This document shows, one piece after another, positions 13,656 to 26,092 of a stretch of DNA of 33,645 nucleotides. The DNA is from a virus. The stretch is taken from IMG/VR virus record IMGVR_UViG_3300027969_000266, positions 1 through 33,645 of that record; one strand, written 5' to 3'. Numbering within the stretch: position 1 is the first letter of the stretch; the number at the start of each line of letters is the position of its first letter. The notes beneath the pieces were generated by a model. It worked only from the letters and a program-made list of their open reading frames with translations. It was not told the origin of the DNA and did no database searches. The position numbers were made by a program, and so were the translations under genes.

Positions 13656-14836
13656 TGGCTGACCCAGTAGCATTTGAATTTGAAACGGCCAAGCAACTCC
13701 TAAGACTTTTAAAGAAGTCCAAGGATGGTGTATTTAATTCAGAGGTCAATGATGAAATTCCTTTGGATCATGCACCTGCATTCATTTGGGCTTATGTTCC
13801 AGCTACAGTTACCTGCACCTATGATGCCACAGTTAAGGCTTGGATTATTGGTGGGGCTGTTACTTGCTATCCCATCAACTCAGGGGTAGATGCTGCAGGT
13901 TTAATGCAATGGGGAAAGAATAATACTGATGGTGTTGTCACAGGTGGCATTACCTGCACCACTTTCACACCTAAGCTAACCTCTACTCAAACGGCTCCAA
14001 GCATAGGCAAGGGTTTCTACTTAGGCACTATCTTTGGATATAACGAATCCGAACAGCCAAGAGTGCTGATAGGGTTACCACCTGCACCCGCAACTGGTGG
14101 TAACGCAACCATAGAAGTGGTCACCGATGTTATCTGTACACCCACAGGGATTGAAGTATCCACAGTTACTTTGTCAGGTGCTGATTATGACAACGCAGTC
14201 ATAAGGCAATTCTTGGCTTTATCCGATGTTACGCCATCATCCTATTTAGGAAACCAAGGCCGAGTGGTCAAAGTTAATGATGCAGCAACTGGGTTGGAAT
14301 TTGGTGCCCTAACCGATGTAACTGCATCCACCTTCATTGCCTTGACAGACACTCCATCTGTATGGGGTACAACGAACACCTATAAAACTGTGGCTGTTTC
14401 TAGCACTAATAACAGTTTAGTTTTTGCAGCAAATAATGTGACCACAACAGACAGCATAGTGGGAGGTGGTAATCCGAACTCGCCAACCTGGGCAGCACTA
14501 AGTTTGGTAAACGACACCACAAACCCTGGAAATAACAAATATTACGCTACCACTTCCACAGGAGTTAAGGGCTGGCGGTCACCATCTCTAATAGGCGCAA
14601 CCGATTTTCCTGCAAACTACACCAGCGCAGGCAGTAAGTTTCTCAAAGTTAATGCAGGTGCTACAGCGGTTGAGTTTGTAGGGCCATTGGCAGCGGTTGC
14701 AGATGTGACAGCGTATACGATTTCGAGTGTAGATTTAGCTACGGCAGTATCGACAACACAAACAGCCATTGATGATTTAAAGACTCAAATGAACTTACTG
14801 TTAGCCCGCATCAGGTCACATGGGTTAATATCATAA
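13655..14836 (+). CDS. Tail protein with fibre-type repeat
   Basis: The product has 393 residues. The first ~160 form a β-rich domain with several Cys, starting VAFEFETAKQLLRLLKK. Around residues 190-217 is the recognisable fibre unit LSDVTPSSYLGNQGRVVKVN followed by AATGLEF. Related phrases recur later (FIALTDTPSVWG, and SKFLKVNAGATAVEF near 325). The last 35 residues are a short amphipathic helix with IDDLKTQMNLLLARI, likely a trimerising coiled coil. It overlaps both neighbours by TAATG. A role in the tail tip or fibre base is inferred. Confidence 0.75.
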   Translation: MADPVAFEFETAKQLLRLLKKSKDGVFNSEVNDEIPLDHAPAFIWAYVPATVTCTYDATVKAWIIGGAVTCYPINSGVDAAGLMQWGKNNTDGVVTGGITCTTFTPKLTSTQTAPSIGKGFYLGTIFGYNESEQPRVLIGLPPAPATGGNATIEVVTDVICTPTGIEVSTVTLSGADYDNAVIRQFLALSDVTPSSYLGNQGRVVKVNDAATGLEFGALTDVTASTFIALTDTPSVWGTTNTYKTVAVSSTNNSLVFAANNVTTTDSIVGGGNPNSPTWAALSLVNDTTNPGNNKYYATTSTGVKGWRSPSLIGATDFPANYTSAGSKFLKVNAGATAVEFVGPLAAVADVTAYTISSVDLATAVSTTQTAIDDLKTQMNLLLARIRSHGLIS

Positions 14837-16422
14837 TGCAATTCTCAACCACTCACTCTGGAATACAATCCTATTATTGCACCGCAATTAATGCCACTAC
14901 TGATAGCCTTACTTTGTCAGGGGGGACCATTACGGTAGGGAAAATTTACAAAGTCTTTATTACTAAATATGTTTTAGATTTACCTATCGAGATTGAAACA
15001 GAGAAGATTTATTTTTTAAGAATATCCAGTTCAGTCATCAAGATTTACTTAACTTTGGCAACTGCAAAAACGCAGACAAGTCCGATTAATTTTGCAACCA
15101 GTGCAAGTGGTACTTTGTTTATTGTTTACTTTCCTGAAAAGGCATACGCACCACTTACAAACGCAATATCAACCGCAGCGGAACCAGACCATATTTATTG
15201 CTGTCCACCTGTGGAACCAAGAAAAACTACCGACTTGATTGATACGGCAACCATAACTTTTTTAGGTACAACCGTAATTTTGAAGATGAAGTTTTGGAAT
15301 GTAGATGCATATAGTTGGGACTTTAGCCGATTGGCCTACCTAACAGCACCAGAAGTCACCATCGGATCTTACCAGTATAAATTTGAAATGTATTTTTATG
15401 ATGGCCCTTACCCTAGTTATAATAGAGACTACACTCAATGCAGGATGTCTGTAACTTCAAATGACCCTTCATGGAATGCTTTTTTCCCTGCAGTAACGGA
15501 AACAGGAACTACCTCTTTTTTAAATGCAGCCTTCCCCATGAGTGGCAATCTGGAAGGTGATAGGTATGTAGGAACTTATCCATCAGGATCTTGGGTATCA
15601 ACTTCTATTCCAGTTGTTTTTTCTGGAAACCAAACACTGCCAGACCAGTTGCGTTTTTATATGGTCGATGCCTATTTAGAACGCAGGGAAAGAGATCTTA
15701 CAGATCCTATTGTTCCTGAAGGCATTCAGAATAAGGTGGAGCTTGGCACGATTGATGTCATTTTAACTTATGATACTGATGCCTGTATGTATATCTCGGA
15801 TGTTCTCAACTATTACGAAATTCCAGGCAGGTTGGTTTATGCACCAGATAAAAACCCTGGTGGAAGTGCAAACGGGATAATCGACTATCCGACCATCACA
15901 AGCGGTAAGAAGTTCATCTCTTATCTAGGTCAACGAGATCAAAATATAAGCTTTTTAGGCACTGCGTCTCAGGATCCCTATGGATCACGAGCCCCAATAG
16001 ATAGATGGAACGCTTGGTTTAATGGTAGTTCCAGTTTTAGCTACAGAGACTTTATGCTTTCTCAGGACGACTCAGGTGGCTTTACGGATTATTATTTAGG
16101 GGTCAATCGTAGTTTTTCAGTTCGCTACACAGGAGGCACCCCATTTTTTACTGGGCTTCCTGATGGGGCAGTGTTCATGGACTCAAGGTTTCAATACACA
16201 TATGACACTGTTGGTCGTGGCTGGAATATGAATGGTGTTCCGCAAAAGTATATCCTATTTTATGCCATGCAAAAGTCAGCGAAAAAGCCAAACCCATATG
16301 GGCCTCATATTTTTACTGAAGGCCCAGGAAATATTTATAAGAACAACTATTACTACATCGTTTCTGATTCCGCTGAGTCTTATATAACCTCATTCATTAC
16401 CGCCCCACCACCACCACCCTAA
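14836..16422 (+). CDS. Large tail-module protein of unknown family
   Basis: The product has 528 residues. It is rich in Tyr, Phe, Thr and Pro and low in repeats, which suggests a compact β-structured receptor-binding or tip protein rather than an elongated fibre. Visible features are a β-rich N-terminal domain, a middle segment with YQYKFEMYFYDGPYPSYNRDY, a region with GTIDVILTYDTDACMYISDV, and a C-terminus ending in a run of six Pro. No signal peptide or membrane segment is present. I do not recognise it. Its position suggests virion assembly or host recognition. Confidence 0.75.
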   Translation: MQFSTTHSGIQSYYCTAINATTDSLTLSGGTITVGKIYKVFITKYVLDLPIEIETEKIYFLRISSSVIKIYLTLATAKTQTSPINFATSASGTLFIVYFPEKAYAPLTNAISTAAEPDHIYCCPPVEPRKTTDLIDTATITFLGTTVILKMKFWNVDAYSWDFSRLAYLTAPEVTIGSYQYKFEMYFYDGPYPSYNRDYTQCRMSVTSNDPSWNAFFPAVTETGTTSFLNAAFPMSGNLEGDRYVGTYPSGSWVSTSIPVVFSGNQTLPDQLRFYMVDAYLERRERDLTDPIVPEGIQNKVELGTIDVILTYDTDACMYISDVLNYYEIPGRLVYAPDKNPGGSANGIIDYPTITSGKKFISYLGQRDQNISFLGTASQDPYGSRAPIDRWNAWFNGSSSFSYRDFMLSQDDSGGFTDYYLGVNRSFSVRYTGGTPFFTGLPDGAVFMDSRFQYTYDTVGRGWNMNGVPQKYILFYAMQKSAKKPNPYGPHIFTEGPGNIYKNNYYYIVSDSAESYITSFITAPPPPP

Positions 16423-17478: not shown

Positions 17479-18624
17479 ATGGCAACAACACTAAGAATCA
17501 AAAGAAGGTCTAGCTCCACAGTAGGGGCACCTTCCACACTTGCATCCTCAGAACTGGCATTTAACGAAACCTCTGGGGGTAGGGTGTTGTACTACGGATT
17601 GGGGGATGTCAGTGGCACAGCTTCCAGTGTGATAGCAATTGGTGGCCCAGACTTTGTTTCTAGCACCATACCCAACCTTACTGGGGTAGTCACTTCTGTA
17701 GGAACAACCACCAGCATTGCTAACGCAGCAATCACTAATGCCATGCTAGCTAATACAGCAGTAGCAAATTTAAGCGGGAGTAATACTGGGGATAACGCTG
17801 TTAACAGTTTGTACAGCAGTCTCATTTCCGATAAAACTGTAGTCTTAACGGCTGGCACTGGGGTTACTGTCACAGGAACTTATCCATCGTTTACGATAGC
17901 TGCCACCGGATCAGGTGGAACTATTACCAGTGTTAGTGTAGTATCGGCCAATGGCTTTGCAGGCACAGTTTCCACAGCAACATCCACACCATCAATCACG
18001 ATAAGCACTTCCATCACTGGCCTAATCAAAGGCAATGGAACCGCACTCAGTGCTGCTGTTGCTGCCACTGATTATGTTGCCCCAGGTGGTGCCCTTGGCA
18101 CACCCTCATCTGGTACTCTGACCAATTGCACTTTCCCGACTTTAAATCAAAACACCACAGGCACCGCATCTAATGTAACTGGAATTGTTGCAGTAACTAA
18201 TGGTGGCACAGGGCAAACTTCCAGCACTGGTTCTGGTGCAGTAGTACTAGCTAACACACCTACTCTTATAACTCCAAATATTGGGGCAGCGACTGGAACA
18301 TCATTAGTATTATCAGGTGATATGACCGTTAATAACCTGACAGTCAACGGCACAACCACAACCATTAACTCAACCACCCTTGCAGTGGGTGATAAAAACA
18401 TAATCTTGGCCAGTGCATCCACTACCGATGCGGGTGCAGATGGGGGTGGCATAACCATTAAGGGTCTCACGGATAAATTATTTAATTGGATTGATGCAAC
18501 CGATTCTTGGACATCTTCCGAGCATATCGATTTAGCCACAGGCAAGGTATTAAAAATCAATGGAACAACAGTACTTTCCGCAACCGCTCTTAGTGGTGTG
18601 GATATAGATGGGGGGTCATTCTGA
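17479..18624 (+). CDS. Tail fibre protein
   Basis: The product has 381 residues. It starts with the short module [26 protein letters not shown], frequent at fibre N-termini. Low-complexity Thr/Ser/Gly/Ala repeats follow, with phrases [28 protein letters not shown] and [20 protein letters not shown]. Near the end is a conserved block ([45 protein letters not shown]) known from many phage structural proteins. It ends IDGGSF. There is no signal peptide. It is probably a trimeric adhesin fibre; the next gene starts on its stop. Confidence 0.85.
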
Positions 18625-20018
18625 TGGCAACGATCAATGTAACTTCAACTGCTGATTCTGGTGCTGGTACGCTACGCCAAGCGATCACAGATCTTAATGC
18701 ACAGACAGGTAGTCACACGATTACCTTTACCGGACTAACAGGCACGATCACGCTGGCATCCGCATTACCAGCATTGACTAAAAGCATGACCATTACTGGG
18801 CCCGGCTTAAGTAGCTTGACCGTTAGCGGTAATAATCTTTATCGTGTGTTTAATTTAAATGCTAGCTTAACTTTTTCTATAAGTGGATTAACAATTGCTA
18901 ATGGTCGAGCAACAGGAACATATCCTGCAAATCTTGGTGGTGGTATTTATACCTCTGGATCTACACTTACAGTTAGTAATTGCACATTTAATGGATGTTA
19001 TTCTGGCAGCGTTGGTGGAGCAATTTATTCTGATGGCCAATTTTCAGTAACTAATTGCACATTTGCATCTAATACAGCATTGTCGGGTGGTAGTGCGATT
19101 CATGCATCTGGAGCAAGCACTGCAACTGTTGGTAATTGCACATTTTCTGGAAACACTGGTACGGCTTATATCGGTAATTGTTCTTTTACAGTTTATAACT
19201 GCACATTTAATGGAAATACTGGATTGAAAGCAGGAGCTATAAGCACAGGCGGAACCGTGTCGTCTGCTATTTTGTCAAGCACTATTTCTGGTAATAGTGC
19301 AACCGACACCTCTGGTTATCAGCCTGCTGGTGGTGGAATTTGGCATAGTGAGTATTGCTCACTAACAATTAAAAATTCAATCATTTCTGGTAATACTGGA
19401 ACTTATGCAGATGTAGGTGGGTACAACAGTTCAAGTATTCCAGTAGCAAAAGTTGCCAATATTGTTGGAAGTGCTTACAACTGGACTGGAGATGTTTCTG
19501 CTGCATCATTAGGTACGCTTGGAAGTTTAGCGAACAATGGTGGCACAACTTTGACGATGGCGATTCCCGCAGGGAGTTCAGCGATTGGTGCTGGTAATGC
19601 TACAGCAAGTAACGCATCCCCTGTGAGTGGACTAGACCAAAGAGGGACAGCAAGATCAGCATCTACACCAACGATTGGTGCAGTTGAATATTCATCATCC
19701 CCAACACCTACTCCAACGCCTACACCAACACCAACTCCAACTCCAACACCAACACCAACTCCAACTCCAACTCCAACGCCTACTCCAACGCCTACTCCAA
19801 CACCAACACCGACTCCCAGTCCAAGCCCAACACCGGCAAACATTATTCGACCCAAGCGCAGCACGACTGCTTCTGCGGTTCCAAGTTCATTGGTGGCTTA
19901 TGAAATTGCTGTCAATATTACGGATAAAAAAATCTGGGTAGCTGATGCAACAGGGGCACCTGTGCTAATGTCAGAACTTAATGACCTTCCACCTTCCATC
20001 GATGGCGGGACTTTTTGA
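18624..20018 (+). CDS. β-helix adhesin with host-like surface domain, PT linker and fibre module
   Basis: The product has 464 residues in three parts. Residues 1-350 are a right-handed β-helix with polymorphic-outer-membrane-type repeats ([35 protein letters not shown]), finishing with the choice-of-anchor-Q pattern [30 protein letters not shown] and TIGAVEY. Residues 360-404 are a Pro-Thr dipeptide linker. Residues about 405-464 repeat the fibre module [20 protein letters not shown] that starts the next gene, and end IDGGTF. The β-helix type is common on planctomycete cell surfaces, so I infer capture of a host domain as a receptor-binding fibre. It might also cleave polysaccharide, but I see no clear catalytic site. 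Confidence 0.85.
19701..19835 (+). repeat. In-frame hexanucleotide Pro-Thr repeat
   Basis: Forty-five codons alternate Pro with Thr (Ser in the last few units), from unit CCN-ACN. Third bases vary (CCA/CCT/CCG, ACA/ACT/ACG), so the tract is an imperfect hexanucleotide repeat with larger sub-repeats. Because the unit is six bases, slippage or recombination would change linker length without shifting frame. It separates the β-helix from the C-terminal fibre module of the adhesin. Confidence 0.92.
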
Positions 20019-20020
20019 AA

Positions 20021-20941
20021 ATGGCTAACACCATCCGACCTAAAAGATCGTATACCTCAGCAGCAGTTCCAACTGCTGTGATCGCTGGGGAAATGTCTGT
20101 AAATGTTACGGATGGTAAAATATGGATGACCTCATCCGATGGTTTAAGTCAGGTATTAGTATCATCACTTACTCGCAGTGACCACACAGGCACACTAGGT
20201 GTGGCATCAGGTGGAACAGGATTAGGAACACTCACGGCAAACAATGTTATCCTTGGAAATGGCACTAGCACCCCAAGCTTTGTTGCACCTGGTACATCTG
20301 GAAATCTATTAACATCAAATGGCACAACTTGGGAAAGCTCTACCCCAGCAGCTTCTTCCTCCCTGCCAACTGGCGCACTCATGCCCTATGCAGGCGCAAC
20401 GGCACCTACTGGGTATCTGTTATGCGATGGCAGTTCTGTAAGTAGTTCTACTTACTTGGCACTTCATGCAGTGTTATCTAACACCTATGGTGGATCTGCT
20501 TACACAGGGGCAGGCGCACTAAGTTTTAATCTGCCAGACCTGAGGGGCAGGCTCCCGATGGGTGCTGGCACAGGTAGTGGGCAGAACGCATCAGGCACAG
20601 GCGCACCGAGTGGAACAGCACAAACAGCTAGGACTAGGGGCCAGTGGGGTGGAGAAGAAACCAACCTTTTAAGCACCACAGAAATGCCTAGCCATAATCA
20701 CGGTGGAGCAACGCAGGGTGGTGGTAGTCATAGCCATACACCAGCAGGAAGCATTGGAAATGTAGGTCTAGGAACCAATAATCTGGCAGTTTCTGGTGGA
20801 TCTCAATGGGGCTTTTCATCTACTGCAACCATCACCAACACCGTAGCCAATCACACACACACTATCGATGCTCAGGGTGGCGGTGGAAGGCATAACAATG
20901 TGCCACCTTTTGTTGTCCTTAATTACATCATTAAAACCTAG
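20021..20941 (+). CDS. Tail collar domain fibre protein
   Basis: The product has 306 residues from ATG 20021 (TTG 20015 is in frame but overlaps the previous stop). The N-terminal module IRPKRSYTSAAVPTAVIAGE duplicates the C-terminal module of the preceding adhesin. A Gly/Thr/Ser shaft with GVASGGTGLGTL follows. The C-terminal half is a phage tail collar domain: LPTGALMPYAGATAPTGYLLCDGSS, then FNLPDLRGRLPMG, the His-rich EMPSHNHGG and SHSHTP, NHTHTI, and the signature ending NNVPPFVVLNYIIKT. The His residues probably coordinate metal in the trimer. This is the last fibre gene of the tail module. Confidence 0.92.
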   Translation: MANTIRPKRSYTSAAVPTAVIAGEMSVNVTDGKIWMTSSDGLSQVLVSSLTRSDHTGTLGVASGGTGLGTLTANNVILGNGTSTPSFVAPGTSGNLLTSNGTTWESSTPAASSSLPTGALMPYAGATAPTGYLLCDGSSVSSSTYLALHAVLSNTYGGSAYTGAGALSFNLPDLRGRLPMGAGTGSGQNASGTGAPSGTAQTARTRGQWGGEETNLLSTTEMPSHNHGGATQGGGSHSHTPAGSIGNVGLGTNNLAVSGGSQWGFSSTATITNTVANHTHTIDAQGGGGRHNNVPPFVVLNYIIKT

Positions 20942-21141: not shown

Positions 21142-21804
21142 ATGAACCTAATACCCATTCTATTCTTAGCCCTTGGTCAGCAGGTAACCCTGCCACAAGA
21201 AATCCATGGGCAGCCTGGAGCTTTCATCAGCATCCCATCTGTCACCGATTGCAAGAGTGTTCAATGGGTGGTCCTTGATCAGGGGCTAAACCTGTTTCCT
21301 GTGGAGCTGCTCAGGGATACCACCACCGCAGTGGTGAGCGCAAATGCTTCAGGTAAGTTTAGAGTCCTAGCCTATGCAGCTAAAGGGGATGCTGCCAGCA
21401 AGCCTGCCATGACTACTGTGATCATTGGAAATCCACCCGAACCAACACCAGCACCGGATGAAACCACTTCTAAACTAACCCGAGAACTAAAGTCCTTGTA
21501 TGTGTCATTGGGTGAGGATGATAAGCAGGGTAAGGTTAACAAACTTGCTGGGCTTTATGCCAGCTTTGCAACCACTGTGAAGGGTGAGGAAGTCCAGACC
21601 GCAGGAGAGTTATTAGGGTTATGTAAAGAGGCTGTTGCAAGGGTGCTTAGCCCTTCAGATTTGCGGGAAATAAGAGTCAGGATACAATCAGAGCTGTCAG
21701 GTTTCCCGACTGATCCAGATGAAAAGCTGGATGACAAAATAAAAAAAATGATAAGTGGGAAATTTATGGAAATATCTAAGGCACTGGAACGAATAACTAA
21801 ATGA
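21142..21804 (+). CDS. Exported two-domain protein of planctomycete type
   Basis: The product has 220 residues. A short hydrophobic N-terminus (NLIPILFLALG) looks like a signal sequence. It is followed by a β-domain with the pattern QEIHGQPGAFISIPS, VQWVVLDQGLNLFPVELLRDT, TAVVSANASGKFRVLAYAAKGD and a PPEPTPAP linker. I know this domain from planctomycete genomes. Residues about 110-220 are helical. It precedes the cysteine peptidase with ATGA overlap and so belongs to the same translational unit. A role in envelope contact during lysis or entry is inferred from company only. Confidence 0.75.
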   Translation: MNLIPILFLALGQQVTLPQEIHGQPGAFISIPSVTDCKSVQWVVLDQGLNLFPVELLRDTTTAVVSANASGKFRVLAYAAKGDAASKPAMTTVIIGNPPEPTPAPDETTSKLTRELKSLYVSLGEDDKQGKVNKLAGLYASFATTVKGEEVQTAGELLGLCKEAVARVLSPSDLREIRVRIQSELSGFPTDPDEKLDDKIKKMISGKFMEISKALERITK

Positions 21805-22715
21805 GTGGACCATCCAATCTAGGATGGATTCCACCCAGTGAACGCACCTCAGGACAGATCGAGCTGGACGCACAAATCCAAGCTCGATGGGAACCATTCA
21901 AGATCAGGGGCAAATACAAAGAACCCACCTCAGCCCTTCTCTATCGATTCATTCATGATCATAAACCCTTCTACCAGATGACAGGAAGTTGTGTAGGTAA
22001 TGGCCTAGGGATGGCTTTGTGGTGCTTGGAATCCATAGAGGTTAACCAACTCGGTCAGCTTGAAAATCCAGTCTGCCCATTTTGGTTATTGCCCTATGGG
22101 AAATCGCGCGAACTTGCTGGCATGAGTGGTAGAGGTGAAGGCAGTTTTGGCAGTGCAGCCATAGAAGCCTTGATGAAATTTGGCACCCTGCCTTCCGATG
22201 ATCCATCAGTACCCAAACCCAAACTGGTAGATGGGGCATGGACATGGGGGGAATCTGCGGAAATGCAGTGGTCAGATGGCGCAGCAATCAAACCTGCATT
22301 CCTACTTCAATCTAAAAAATACACCCTGCAAACATCCGCACGAATCAAGTCATGGCAGGAAGCCAAGGCAGCTTTAATCAATGGCTATCCCTTAACTTGT
22401 GCCAGCAACTGGGGTGGGGAAATGAACCCACCAATTAAAGGTACACCTGCAGTAATTCTAAATAGAATGGTGACCCAGTGGGGCCATCAGATGTGCTGCC
22501 TAGGTTGGGTGGATCATCCCGAACTTAAGGACATTTTCTGGATTCAAAATAGCTGGGGTGTGTGCCATGGGAAATCCCCTGGTAATTACCATGAACCAGA
22601 AGGTGGTTTTTGGATCTTAGCAAAAGACATGGAATGGATTTGCAAGGATGGGGAAGTGTTTTCCCTATCTAATTTTGAGGGTTTCCCAGTACAGAAACTC
22701 GATTGGTTAATTTAA
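21801..22715 (+). CDS. Papain-like (C1-type) cysteine peptidase
   Basis: The product has 304 residues. The catalytic set is in papain order: Cys64 in QMTGSCVGNGLG, His229 in WGHQMCCLGW and Asn250 in WIQNSWG; the NSWG motif is diagnostic. No signal peptide is present. It is flanked by an exported protein upstream and a secreted Cys-rich peptide and holin-like protein downstream. No muramidase, amidase or transglycosylase gene is visible in the window. I infer that this peptidase is the main lysis or envelope-degrading enzyme. A virion-borne role in entry is an alternative. Confidence 0.85.
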   Translation: MSGPSNLGWIPPSERTSGQIELDAQIQARWEPFKIRGKYKEPTSALLYRFIHDHKPFYQMTGSCVGNGLGMALWCLESIEVNQLGQLENPVCPFWLLPYGKSRELAGMSGRGEGSFGSAAIEALMKFGTLPSDDPSVPKPKLVDGAWTWGESAEMQWSDGAAIKPAFLLQSKKYTLQTSARIKSWQEAKAALINGYPLTCASNWGGEMNPPIKGTPAVILNRMVTQWGHQMCCLGWVDHPELKDIFWIQNSWGVCHGKSPGNYHEPEGGFWILAKDMEWICKDGEVFSLSNFEGFPVQKLDWLI

Positions 22716-22726
22716 TAGGAGTGAAT

Positions 22727-22912
22727 ATGTCATTTATTTTAGCAACAGTTTTGGCGATGACCCCAGTAGTTGATTCTTCCTGTGAAGAATGTAAACGCTT
22801 TAGCAAATCATGTGTATCAGGTGCAGCCGTTAACAGCTCCACAACTAAAGTAATAACCCGAGACCGATTCAGATTCAAAGGCCGATTTAAAAAAGGTGGA
22901 TGCTGTGCTTAA
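22727..22912 (+). CDS. Small secreted Cys-rich peptide
   Basis: The product has 61 residues from ATG 22727, chosen because TAGGAG lies just upstream (an in-frame ATG at 22703 has no such site). The N-terminus MSFILATVLAMTPVVDSS reads as a signal sequence. After it come CEEC, another Cys, a Thr/Ser region, a strongly basic stretch with RDRFRFKGRFKKGG, and a terminal CCA. Five Cys in such a short mature peptide suggest disulfides or lipid attachment. Position before the holin-like gene makes a spanin- or Rz1-like role conceivable, but no family is recognised. Confidence 0.62.
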   Translation: MSFILATVLAMTPVVDSSCEECKRFSKSCVSGAAVNSSTTKVITRDRFRFKGRFKKGGCCA

Positions 22913-23174
22913 TTATGATTGGCTAACTATCATTGATCGCTTAGGGCTACCAGTGGTGGCCCTTATAGCCATTGGTTATGGCCTCCATAATAGTGCTAGA
23001 TGGTTAGGAAATAACATCCTAATGCCCATTCATCAAAGGCACCTCATATTCTTAGACCGATTAGAGGCAGGCATATCTAGGATCGTAGATACCCAACACG
23101 ATCAAAGCAGCCAGATCATTCATCTAACACAAAAAATTTCAGATCATCTAGAAGCACAGGAGAAAAAGAACTAA
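22896..23174 (+). CDS. Holin-like membrane protein with C-terminal coiled coil
   Basis: The product has 92 residues with a GTG start at 22896, overlapping the preceding gene. One hydrophobic segment (LGLPVVALIAIGYGLHNSA, about 15-34) is followed by the pattern ARWLGNNILMPIHQRHLIFLDRLE and a charged coiled coil to the end. Single-span proteins of this layout are common next to phage lysis enzymes and are usually annotated as holins. It would form the membrane lesion or regulate the timing of lysis. The stop overlaps the next ATG (TAATG). Confidence 0.72.
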   Translation: MDAVLNYDWLTIIDRLGLPVVALIAIGYGLHNSARWLGNNILMPIHQRHLIFLDRLEAGISRIVDTQHDQSSQIIHLTQKISDHLEAQEKKN

Positions 23175-23503
23175 TGCTACTACCATTACCACAAGACCTA
23201 CCTATTGAAGGTGTAGGAATATTAATCGATAGACTCAGGGGCAAACCTATTCCCTTGCAAACAGCCCTAAATGCTGCTTGGAATCTTGCTGGCTATGCTG
23301 CCACTCAGGTTCCCTTAAATCAACCAGTAACAGAAGTGAACCACACCTACCCAGTCACGGATGATGAGGTGATCACCCTGTTAGAAATGATCAAAGGTGA
23401 GTATCAAACCCCATCAGAAGGGGATCCTATTAAATTTGCAGTGATCCCTTGGGCAATTGTGTTGAAAGTCTTGATCAAGATGATCATTAATGCTGCACTC
23501 TAA
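23174..23503 (+). CDS. Unknown protein downstream of the holin-like gene
   Basis: The product has 109 residues. The N-terminal half contains DLPIEGVGILIDRLRGKPIPLQTALNAAWNLAGYAA. An acidic middle part follows, and a hydrophobic C-terminal segment (FAVIPWAIVLKVLIKMIINAAL) could insert in a membrane. It is translationally coupled to the holin-like gene. It may be a second small holin, an antiholin, or a lysis accessory. No family is recognised. Confidence 0.68.
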   Translation: MLLPLPQDLPIEGVGILIDRLRGKPIPLQTALNAAWNLAGYAATQVPLNQPVTEVNHTYPVTDDEVITLLEMIKGEYQTPSEGDPIKFAVIPWAIVLKVLIKMIINAAL

Positions 23504-23816
23504 GCAGCCAGACCGATTATGTTTTGGAATCCCTAGGTCATCTAAATGGCCTGGGGTCCGAACGCAATACTTAAAACTAAATCCATTCTGCGCTGCATGT
23601 GGATCACCTGAAAAGGTAGAGGTTCACCATGTGGTTCCTTACCATACCCCTGCAGGAAAATCCCTAGAACTAGACTTTGAAAATCTAATTACCCTCTGCA
23701 TGGGAAGTGGTCGCTGTCACTTTGTTCATGGCCACCTGCTAAACTGGCGCTCTCATAACAGAGATGTTAGGATGGATTGTGTCAAGTATTATCGAAAAAT
23801 TGAAACACGACCTTAG
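23490..23816 (+). CDS. HNH endonuclease
   Basis: The product has 108 residues. The HNH/ββα-metal pattern is complete: zinc Cys34 and Cys37 (CAAC), HH at 46-47 in VEVHHVVPYH, Asn65 in ENLITLC, Cys70, and CHFVHGH at 76-82. The surrounding sequence (RSSKWPGVRTQYL, HLLNWRSHN) is a version I associate with planctomycetes and their phages. It overlaps the preceding gene by 14 bases. Its role could be nicking or cleavage in packaging or recombination, or it could be a selfish element. A second HNH gene near the genome end is the more likely packaging partner. Confidence 0.88.
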   Translation: MLHSKQPDRLCFGIPRSSKWPGVRTQYLKLNPFCAACGSPEKVEVHHVVPYHTPAGKSLELDFENLITLCMGSGRCHFVHGHLLNWRSHNRDVRMDCVKYYRKIETRP

Positions 23817-24245: not shown

Positions 24246-24263
24246 TTATCTAGTACAAAGTCG

Positions 24264-24310
24264 CTTGGTTTGGGACCAAGAAGTCGCAGGTTCGAATCCT
24301 GTCTCCCCGA
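24264..24310 (+). other. attP: attP core: 3' half of a tRNA-Pro(TGG) gene
   Basis: The sequence folds as the anticodon arm (CTTGG 24264-24268, loop TTTGGGA with anticodon TGG at 24271-24273, CCAAG 24276-24280), a 5-base variable loop, the T arm with TTCGAAT loop (24286-24302), the 3' acceptor strand CTCCCCG (24303-24309) and discriminator A. The 5' half of a tRNA is absent and no CCA follows. It lies 59 bases before the integrase gene. This is what a tRNA-targeting phage carries so that integration restores the host gene. The inverted 8-mers TTATCTAG (24246-24253) and CTAGATAA (24330-24337) flank it and may be integrase binding sites. Confidence 0.85.
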
Positions 24311-24369
24311 CTCACATGGCGGTTCTGTTCTAGATAAGGATACTTTTTCCCTTACTAGGATGGAACCCT

Positions 24370-25278
24370 ATGAAAAGCTTAGTCACCATTTCGTTTCGTA
24401 ATTTTTTGGACTACCTCCAGACCTATCTACAAAACTCAACCGAGTTAACCACTCACAGATGCGCTCAGGCTAAGTTCCTAGAGTGTGTCAGTTTACCCGA
24501 TCCCAAGAAATTAGCTGTATCCCACCTGAGAAAATTTAGGGATCACATGATCGCTCAGGGTCTGGCTCGCAAGACCATCAGGGAATACCTGCACCGGATT
24601 ATTAGGTGGGTAGGTTTTTGCTGGGAGCAGGGCAAGGTTTCACAAGCAACCTATCTGGCTTGCAAGTCCATGTGGATGCCTAACCCTAGGCAGGGCAGAC
24701 CCCCAGTTAGGACTAAATCTGTTACATGGATACAAATTGCAGAACTCCTACCACATTTACCTACATATCTTTCTAACCTAATCCAGCTGCACTGGCTGAC
24801 AGCAGCTAGGCCATGCGAGATAGTGCAGATCAATTCCAACAACTTTTCCAAAGTTAAGCCTGACCTATGGATCTGGACTTTACCTGACCATAAGGGTGCT
24901 TGGAGGGGTCAGGATCGGCAGTTATATCTAGGTTCTGATGCCATTAGGATTGTTCAGCAGATTGAACCATGCCCCAAAGGATTCCTATTTCCCAGTAAAA
25001 AAAATATTGAGGGATTTTTAACAAGGCTAACCTACCAGCGAGTAGTGAAAAAATGTACACTACAATTAATTAAGAATGGAATTCTAAAGCACCCACCTGA
25101 ATGGACTATTAGGGGCATTCGCTCTGGCCGAGCAAGACACATGCAGACATTGCATGGTCTAGAGGCTGCACGAATATTGCTGGGTCATACTGATCAGCGG
25201 ATGACCAGTCACTATGCAGGGACACCGATTCCCAATGGTGACTTTATTGGTGGCCTTAACCATGAGATTCAAAACTAA
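24370..25278 (+). CDS. int: Tyrosine integrase
   Basis: The product has 302 residues and integrates the phage at the host tRNA-Pro gene. The N-terminal SAM-like core-binding domain (about 1-100) precedes the catalytic domain. Visible catalytic positions are Arg147 in TAARPCEI, Lys175 in DHKG, Arg251 in RGIRSG, His273 in LLGH and nucleophile Tyr282 in TSHYAG. The usual His of the H-x-x-R box is Arg248 here (R-x-x-R), an unusual but possibly functional substitution. The phrase GLEAARILLGHTDQRMTSHYA follows planctomycete-type integrases. AGGATGGA lies upstream of ATG 24370. The adjacent attP supports the call. Confidence 0.92.
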   Translation: MKSLVTISFRNFLDYLQTYLQNSTELTTHRCAQAKFLECVSLPDPKKLAVSHLRKFRDHMIAQGLARKTIREYLHRIIRWVGFCWEQGKVSQATYLACKSMWMPNPRQGRPPVRTKSVTWIQIAELLPHLPTYLSNLIQLHWLTAARPCEIVQINSNNFSKVKPDLWIWTLPDHKGAWRGQDRQLYLGSDAIRIVQQIEPCPKGFLFPSKKNIEGFLTRLTYQRVVKKCTLQLIKNGILKHPPEWTIRGIRSGRARHMQTLHGLEAARILLGHTDQRMTSHYAGTPIPNGDFIGGLNHEIQN

Positions 25279-25895: not shown

Positions 25896-25903
25896 CAAGG
25901 ATG
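25885..25903 (+). promoter_or_regulatory. Possible CsrA binding sites over the csrA ribosome binding site
   Basis: Two GGA motifs lie in the csrA leader. One is the ribosome binding site AAAAGGAG, and the other, CAAGGATG at 25896-25903, overlaps the start codon. CAAGGATG matches the core of the known CsrA consensus (CARGGAUG). A CsrA dimer bridging the two would block its own translation. Autoregulation is inferred from motif and position. Confidence 0.4.
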
Positions 25904-26092
25904 CTGGTATTAGAAAGAAAAGTGAATGAGTCAGTGTTGATCTGGGATGAATCCGACCCGAACAAGATTCTGGTGGTCACCCTTAAGCGGGCAGTGGATG
26001 GATCCTATCAATTAGGTTTTGATGGGCCAAGAAACTTTAGGATTTTTAGACAGGAAATGTTTAATGACAACAGCTTTGAAGACAAAAAATAA
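25901..26092 (+). CDS. csrA: CsrA/RsmA-family RNA-binding translational regulator
   Basis: The product has 63 residues. It aligns over its length with CsrA: MLVLERKVNESVLI corresponds to the E. coli start MLILTRRVGETLMI, and the end LGFDGPRNFRIFRQEMF matches IGVNAPKEVAVHREEIY. Leu4 and the RNA-contacting Arg (Arg50 here, Arg44 in E. coli) are kept. About five extra residues (ESDPNK region) lengthen the β1-β2 turn. Known CsrA proteins are dimers that bind GGA hairpins in mRNA leaders and repress or stabilise them. In a phage it could redirect host translation or regulate phage mRNAs. It sits in the early operon. Confidence 0.9.
   Translation: MLVLERKVNESVLIWDESDPNKILVVTLKRAVDGSYQLGFDGPRNFRIFRQEMFNDNSFEDKK

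Follow-up and report, generated by a model that had tools for sequence, protein, structure and literature searches.

How does a temperate phage open its host when none of its genes resembles a classical cell-wall hydrolase? The question is raised by a freshwater virus record of 33,645 bases (the window, i.e. the whole stretch of DNA that was analysed), which holds most of a temperate siphophage-type genome. Its gene order runs from terminase, HK97-type portal, S78 protease and capsid to tape measure and collar-type fibres; after the fibres comes a five-gene block at 21142-23503, followed by the genes for an integrase, Gp157 and a D5-type primase (Table 1). A sequence-only reading had taken the block as a possible lysis or envelope system based on a papain-like peptidase, without a muramidase. 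We consider it rather probable that uncultured temperate tailed phages use the block as a lysis or envelope-rupture module, with a C1 peptidase instead of the customary peptidoglycan hydrolase.

Table 1. Features of the window discussed in the text
Feature	Position	Strand	Characteristics
Fibre gene, first	17479-18624		shares short motif
Fibre gene, second	18624-20018		shares short motif; long PT repeat
Fibre gene, third	20015-20941		shares short motif
Ig220, 220 aa	21142..21804	+	N-terminal signal-like segment, Ig-like domain, C-terminal helical domain
C1/papain-type cysteine peptidase, 304 aa	21801..22715	+	Q59, C64, H229, N250
cys61, small Cys-rich basic peptide, 61 aa, predicted export	22727..22912	+	ATG start, AGGAG upstream
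hol92, holin-like	22896..23174	+	one N-terminal TM segment, amphipathic/coiled cytoplasmic-type C-terminal part
g109, tail-anchored (predicted)	23174..23503	+	hydrophobic segment at C-terminus
HNH endonuclease	23490..23816	+	PF01844 E 2e-7; 14-nt overlap with g109
tRNA-Pro(TGG), 3' half	24259-24313		anticodon arm, T arm, acceptor strand; likely attP
Tyrosine recombinase (integrase)	24370-25278		
CsrA homologue	25901-26092		PF02599, E 1.2e-8

All five genes are present, consecutive and on the plus strand, and they are tightly packed: Ig220 and the peptidase gene overlap by 4 nt (ATGA), hol92 and g109 by 1 nt, and cys61 and hol92 by 17 nt. Every gene compared is under purifying selection (dN/dS is 0.04-0.08 in the peptidase gene and 0.00-0.39 in the remaining genes, with cys61 at 0.08-0.39), and the order Ig220, peptidase, hol92, g109, HNH is kept in about 39 related contigs. 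A single order across about 39 close relatives could, taken alone, be explained by shared ancestry; low dN/dS and conserved order together argue that the block is not due to chance. A recoding of TGA was considered and rejected, as the signal is a mere upstream extension of the reading frame. Outside the block, the three fibre genes follow one another directly and have a short motif in common (IRPKRS / LRIKRRSS ... E.A.N.....), as if duplicated, and the CsrA homologue of the window phage has a further match in the relative G011 or G015.

The second gene had been read as encoding a C1-type cysteine peptidase with complete catalytic residues, and this held: the catalytic Cys, His and Asn and the oxyanion Gln occur in the order of family C1 and are invariant in close relatives. 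In 33 divergent homologues (identity down to 17%) Q59, C64 and H229 never vary, and N250 is kept in at least 90%; in the peptidase of locus L133 a Gln replaces the catalytic Asn. Distant homologues were reached stepwise, through close relatives first and then via the partner gene Ig220. Searches with the single sequence (Pfam C39_2, E 0.21; PHROG 16701 'peptidase', E 7.6e-4) merely hinted at a papain relationship. Six distant homologues (L132, L157, L165, L167, L171 and L172) pass Pfam Peptidase_C1 (PF00112) with 25-33 bits at a gathering cut-off of 20.7 bits, whereas the window peptidase scores below this cut-off. An AF2 model of the window peptidase, based on an alignment of 33 sequences (pLDDT 90.3, pTM 0.90), has the papain fold: Foldseek returned 225 PDB matches at E <= 0.001, the best 50 of which comprise xylellain, cathepsins, papain and relatives, with xylellain first (E 3.5e-13) and procathepsins and papains behind it. 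Xylellain was also retrieved by a profile search (E 1e-10). Xylellain (PDB 3ois) and the C1A cathepsins (MEROPS C1, PF00112) share their fold and the order of Q, C, H and N with the window peptidase, which differs from them in being encoded by a phage and in having only 18% identity; unlike the cathepsins, it has no I29 propeptide detectable with Pfam and is accompanied by a separate partner that is predicted to be exported. It matches neither NlpC/P60 nor CHAP in Pfam. Judging from its residues and modelled fold, the window protein is very probably an active C1-type peptidase. Among viral C1-fold models in BFVD there are entries named 'N acetylmuramidase (Fragment)' and 'Peptidoglycan binding-like'. 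Three relatives have an extra C39-like cysteine peptidase of about 146 aa, which bears a DGTDPRAIE motif and was not observed in the window: it lies between terminase and portal in G011 (L186:12822-13259) and elsewhere in G014 (L189) and G021 (L172).

A glycosidase or amidase, which the sequence-only reading had failed to see in the window, was also not found when all window proteins were searched against Pfam and many of them against PHROGs. The gene at 14836-16422 and the tape measure, both named beforehand as places where a peptidoglycan hydrolase might be found, carry no hydrolase domain in Pfam or PHROGs. In 29 virus contigs of relatives, mostly fragments, no match was obtained for Amidase_2, SLT, Phage_lysozyme or NlpC/P60 and none above the cut-off for M23 (one match below the cut-off comes from a 186-kb record); Amidase_3 had no match in nine virus contigs. 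Positive controls matched in every one of these searches, and CHAP, GH19, GH108 and M15 were searched in part of the contigs. The enzyme of the module itself belongs to no known peptidoglycan-hydrolase family, according to family searches with the window and its relatives.

The first gene of the block, Ig220, had been described as encoding an exported protein, and a signal-like N-terminal segment is indeed predicted; signal peptides are clearest in the homologues of L131-L133. A beta-rich Ig-like domain (residues ~15-97) is followed by a C-terminal helical domain (~108-220); the label Ig-like comes from the pattern of the sequence and from a weakly matching sialidase beta domain (E 0.0055). 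When loci are collected with Ig220, the peptidase comes after it in 29 of 30 loci (fewer than 30 of them independent, as some are repeat or nearly identical contigs); the exception, L179, ends 0.7 kb past Ig220. When they are collected with the peptidase (80 loci kept out of 211 relatives found in an IMG/VR scan), an Ig220 homologue is nearby in 78 and directly upstream in 74. Ig220 is a near-obligate partner of the peptidase. Among the loci charted, other sequence lies between the two genes only in L133 and L172, and the distances of the two proteins correlate (Mantel r 0.73; 0 of 2000 permutations). In L267 and L268 the slot upstream of the peptidase is filled by a 176-aa protein, predicted to be exported, that by eye resembles the helical domain only; it appears to have kept this domain and to have no Ig-like domain, which suggests that the helical part may be the one that is essential. 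Ig220 was also considered as a chagasin-type (I42) inhibitor of C1 peptidases, which is unsupported: there was no PDB chagasin match, and no Pfam inhibitor family was found among 27 Ig220 homologues at E <= 1.

The gene that had been called holin-like, hol92, does have a TM segment, but it matches no described holin family in Pfam or PHROGs; it does match PHROG 18771 (unknown function, E 1.9e-5). Homologues of hol92 occur in 61 of the 80 peptidase-first loci and in 17 of 28 charted loci, where they are found downstream of the peptidase (eight loci), upstream of Ig220 (eight loci) or after g109 (one locus). That hol92 is retained in three positions despite rearrangement points to a functional link rather than an inherited order. 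No hol92 is recognisable in 19 of the 80 loci (about a quarter), and in several of these the contig ends nearby. The window peptidase has neither a signal peptide nor a TM helix of its own. The peptidases of L132 and L134, two loci without hol92, have a weakly hydrophobic N-terminal segment (borderline hydropathy of 1.42 and 1.46) that may be a membrane anchor, i.e. an anchored counterpart of the hol92-type layout; those of L131 and L133 are soluble, and unrelated one- or two-TM genes lie close by. A role of hol92 as an i-spanin was rejected, as the distribution of its charges suggests the orientation N-out/C-in, which an i-spanin does not have; nor could a pair of spanins be recognised.

The partly hydrophobic fifth protein of the earlier description corresponds to g109, which has homologues in 21 of the 28 charted loci. 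The Cys-rich basic peptide is likewise present and predicted to be secreted, but its start was probably misplaced: ATG 22727, behind an AGGAG box, is more likely than TTG 22703. No lipobox was seen in cys61, and a lipoprotein or spanin was rejected. In L180 and L169 one module is accompanied by two hol92-type genes, behind which a small Cys-rich basic peptide similar to cys61 (predicted exported) is encoded. HNH homologues are found near the module in 14 of 28 charted and 60 of 80 peptidase-first loci; the endonuclease probably lies outside any lysis function and merely accompanies the module.

Very different phages retain one and the same module of partner, peptidase and, usually, a membrane protein. 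Its carriers are diverse, and two contigs already include three portal families. Five probes (peptidase or Ig220, from several clades) did not detect the module in 50,697 deposited phage records, and it was not found in plasmids either. A partner predicted to be exported by Sec, a signal-less enzyme, a single-TM protein and a place after the tail genes match, as far as the sequences tell, a holin-endolysin layout, and a site between tail fibres and integrase is usual for lysis cassettes. The proposed peptidase-centred cassette without a muramidase has gained support from a module whose members stay together in very different phages and from the absence, above cut-off, of six classical hydrolase families in the virus contigs tested; hol92, its candidate holin, is outside the known families. 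Besides hol92, we count against lysis the lack of a recognised spanin pair, the quarter of peptidase loci without a recognisable hol92, the extra C39-like peptidase of three relatives, the fact that the nearest solved relatives have proteins as substrates instead of peptidoglycan, and the fragmentary state of most contigs.

A further point on that side is that some module genes adjoin tail or baseplate-like genes (e.g. in L174, where the gene upstream looks baseplate-like to us), which fits a role in the virion. The peptidase would then be a virion- or tail-associated protease, an ectolysin or maturation factor used in entry or assembly, with Ig220 as an exported or structural partner, and the position of the block directly after the tail fibre and collar genes agrees with this. 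We nevertheless think it unlikely: a signal-bearing partner and single-TM proteins would be odd among virion genes, the window already has a dedicated S78 prohead protease, and the linkage to hol92 survives rearrangements. Less probable again is a function directed at the living host or at competing phages, by which an exported pair of protease and partner would remodel surface proteins (for superinfection exclusion, receptor removal, defence or counter-defence). The phage is temperate, with an integrase and a candidate tRNA attP, and predicted exported proteins and a small Cys-rich peptide accompany the peptidase, all of which would suit such a role; however, most peptidases of the module lack an export signal, late-type genes are packed together with the block, and its occurrence in contigs of about 18 to 190 kb points to a core need more than to an accessory one. 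A peptide-processing or bacteriocin-like system, in which the peptidase would mature cys61 or Ig220, is highly improbable, since cys61, although basic, Cys-rich, predicted exported and directly downstream of the peptidase, has no recognisable counterpart in many members where both Ig220 and the peptidase are retained.

Export, the opening of a hole, the binding of the partner, the substrate and lysis as such are all inferred in the favoured reading, which runs as follows. Ig220 and cys61 would be exported early by Sec, and the signal-less peptidase, translationally coupled to Ig220, would build up folded in the cytoplasm. At a set time hol92 (with g109) would open the inner membrane; the peptidase would reach the envelope and meet Ig220, a docking, folding or regulatory partner acting via its helical domain, and would cleave proteins of the envelope, or peptide cross-links, until the cell bursts. 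Solved C1 enzymes, including the nearest solved relatives of the window peptidase, cut proteins and not peptidoglycan, and peptidoglycan stem peptides contain D-residues; envelope proteolysis is therefore as likely as the cutting of cross-links. The most specific form of this proposal, in which a tailed phage breaks its host open by means of a cathepsin-like protease that attacks envelope proteins, without any peptidoglycan hydrolase, and an exported helical partner folds or controls the protease in trans, is possible but doubtful.

Papain-fold enzymes have been connected with phage lysis before. A papain-superfamily peptidase was proposed as an endolysin domain for the N5/N4 domains of mycobacteriophage lysin A, which are C39-like or RipA/NlpC-type and reside within modular lysins bearing wall-binding domains (PMC3314691), whereas the window enzyme is a stand-alone C1 protein without a wall-binding domain. 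The pseudomurein endoisopeptidases PeiW and PeiP (C71) and the CHAP endolysins are papain-fold phage enzymes that lyse by cutting peptide links (PMC10318531); they belong to families other than C1, have a known wall substrate and lack an exported partner. In the TA-TA prophages of Leptospira a holin/antiholin pair lies beside a predicted cysteine protease that is a putative endolysin (PMC8705779), which is alike by description, and the passages of that paper on the module report no exported partner. Given these precedents (PMC3314691, PMC10318531, PMC8705779), the module would be a variant of papain-fold lysins, and purely proteolytic lysis would go beyond them.

The host might be approached through the attachment site. 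The tRNA-Pro(TGG) segment just upstream of the integrase gene is likely, from its sequence and place, to be attP, and about a dozen related contigs share its 24-nt core; the segment offers a possible route to naming the host. A MAG labelled Rhodobacteraceae (L032 / G001) holds a 34-kb contig related to the window phage. The attP segment is absent from this MAG, with up to three mismatches allowed, and from all 398 genomes of its phylum, among which Ig220 was found in the MAG itself only; the placement of the contig may be a binning error. Planctomycetes possess peptidoglycan (PMC4432640, PMC4432595), so there would be a wall to overcome even if a planctomycete, as the sequence-only reading had supposed, is the host.

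If the module serves lysis, a large group of uncultured phages would use an enzyme class that we have not found described as a stand-alone endolysin in the literature, and would always combine it with a partner that is predicted to be exported; the gene pair would be a marker for the lysis genes of phages with seemingly 'lysin-less' genomes, and one could test by which means phages open hosts that have unusual envelopes. Should it not serve lysis, the near-obligate pair of partner and protease is still an uncharacterised core function, spread over phage contigs of about 18 to 190 kb and yet not found among deposited phages.
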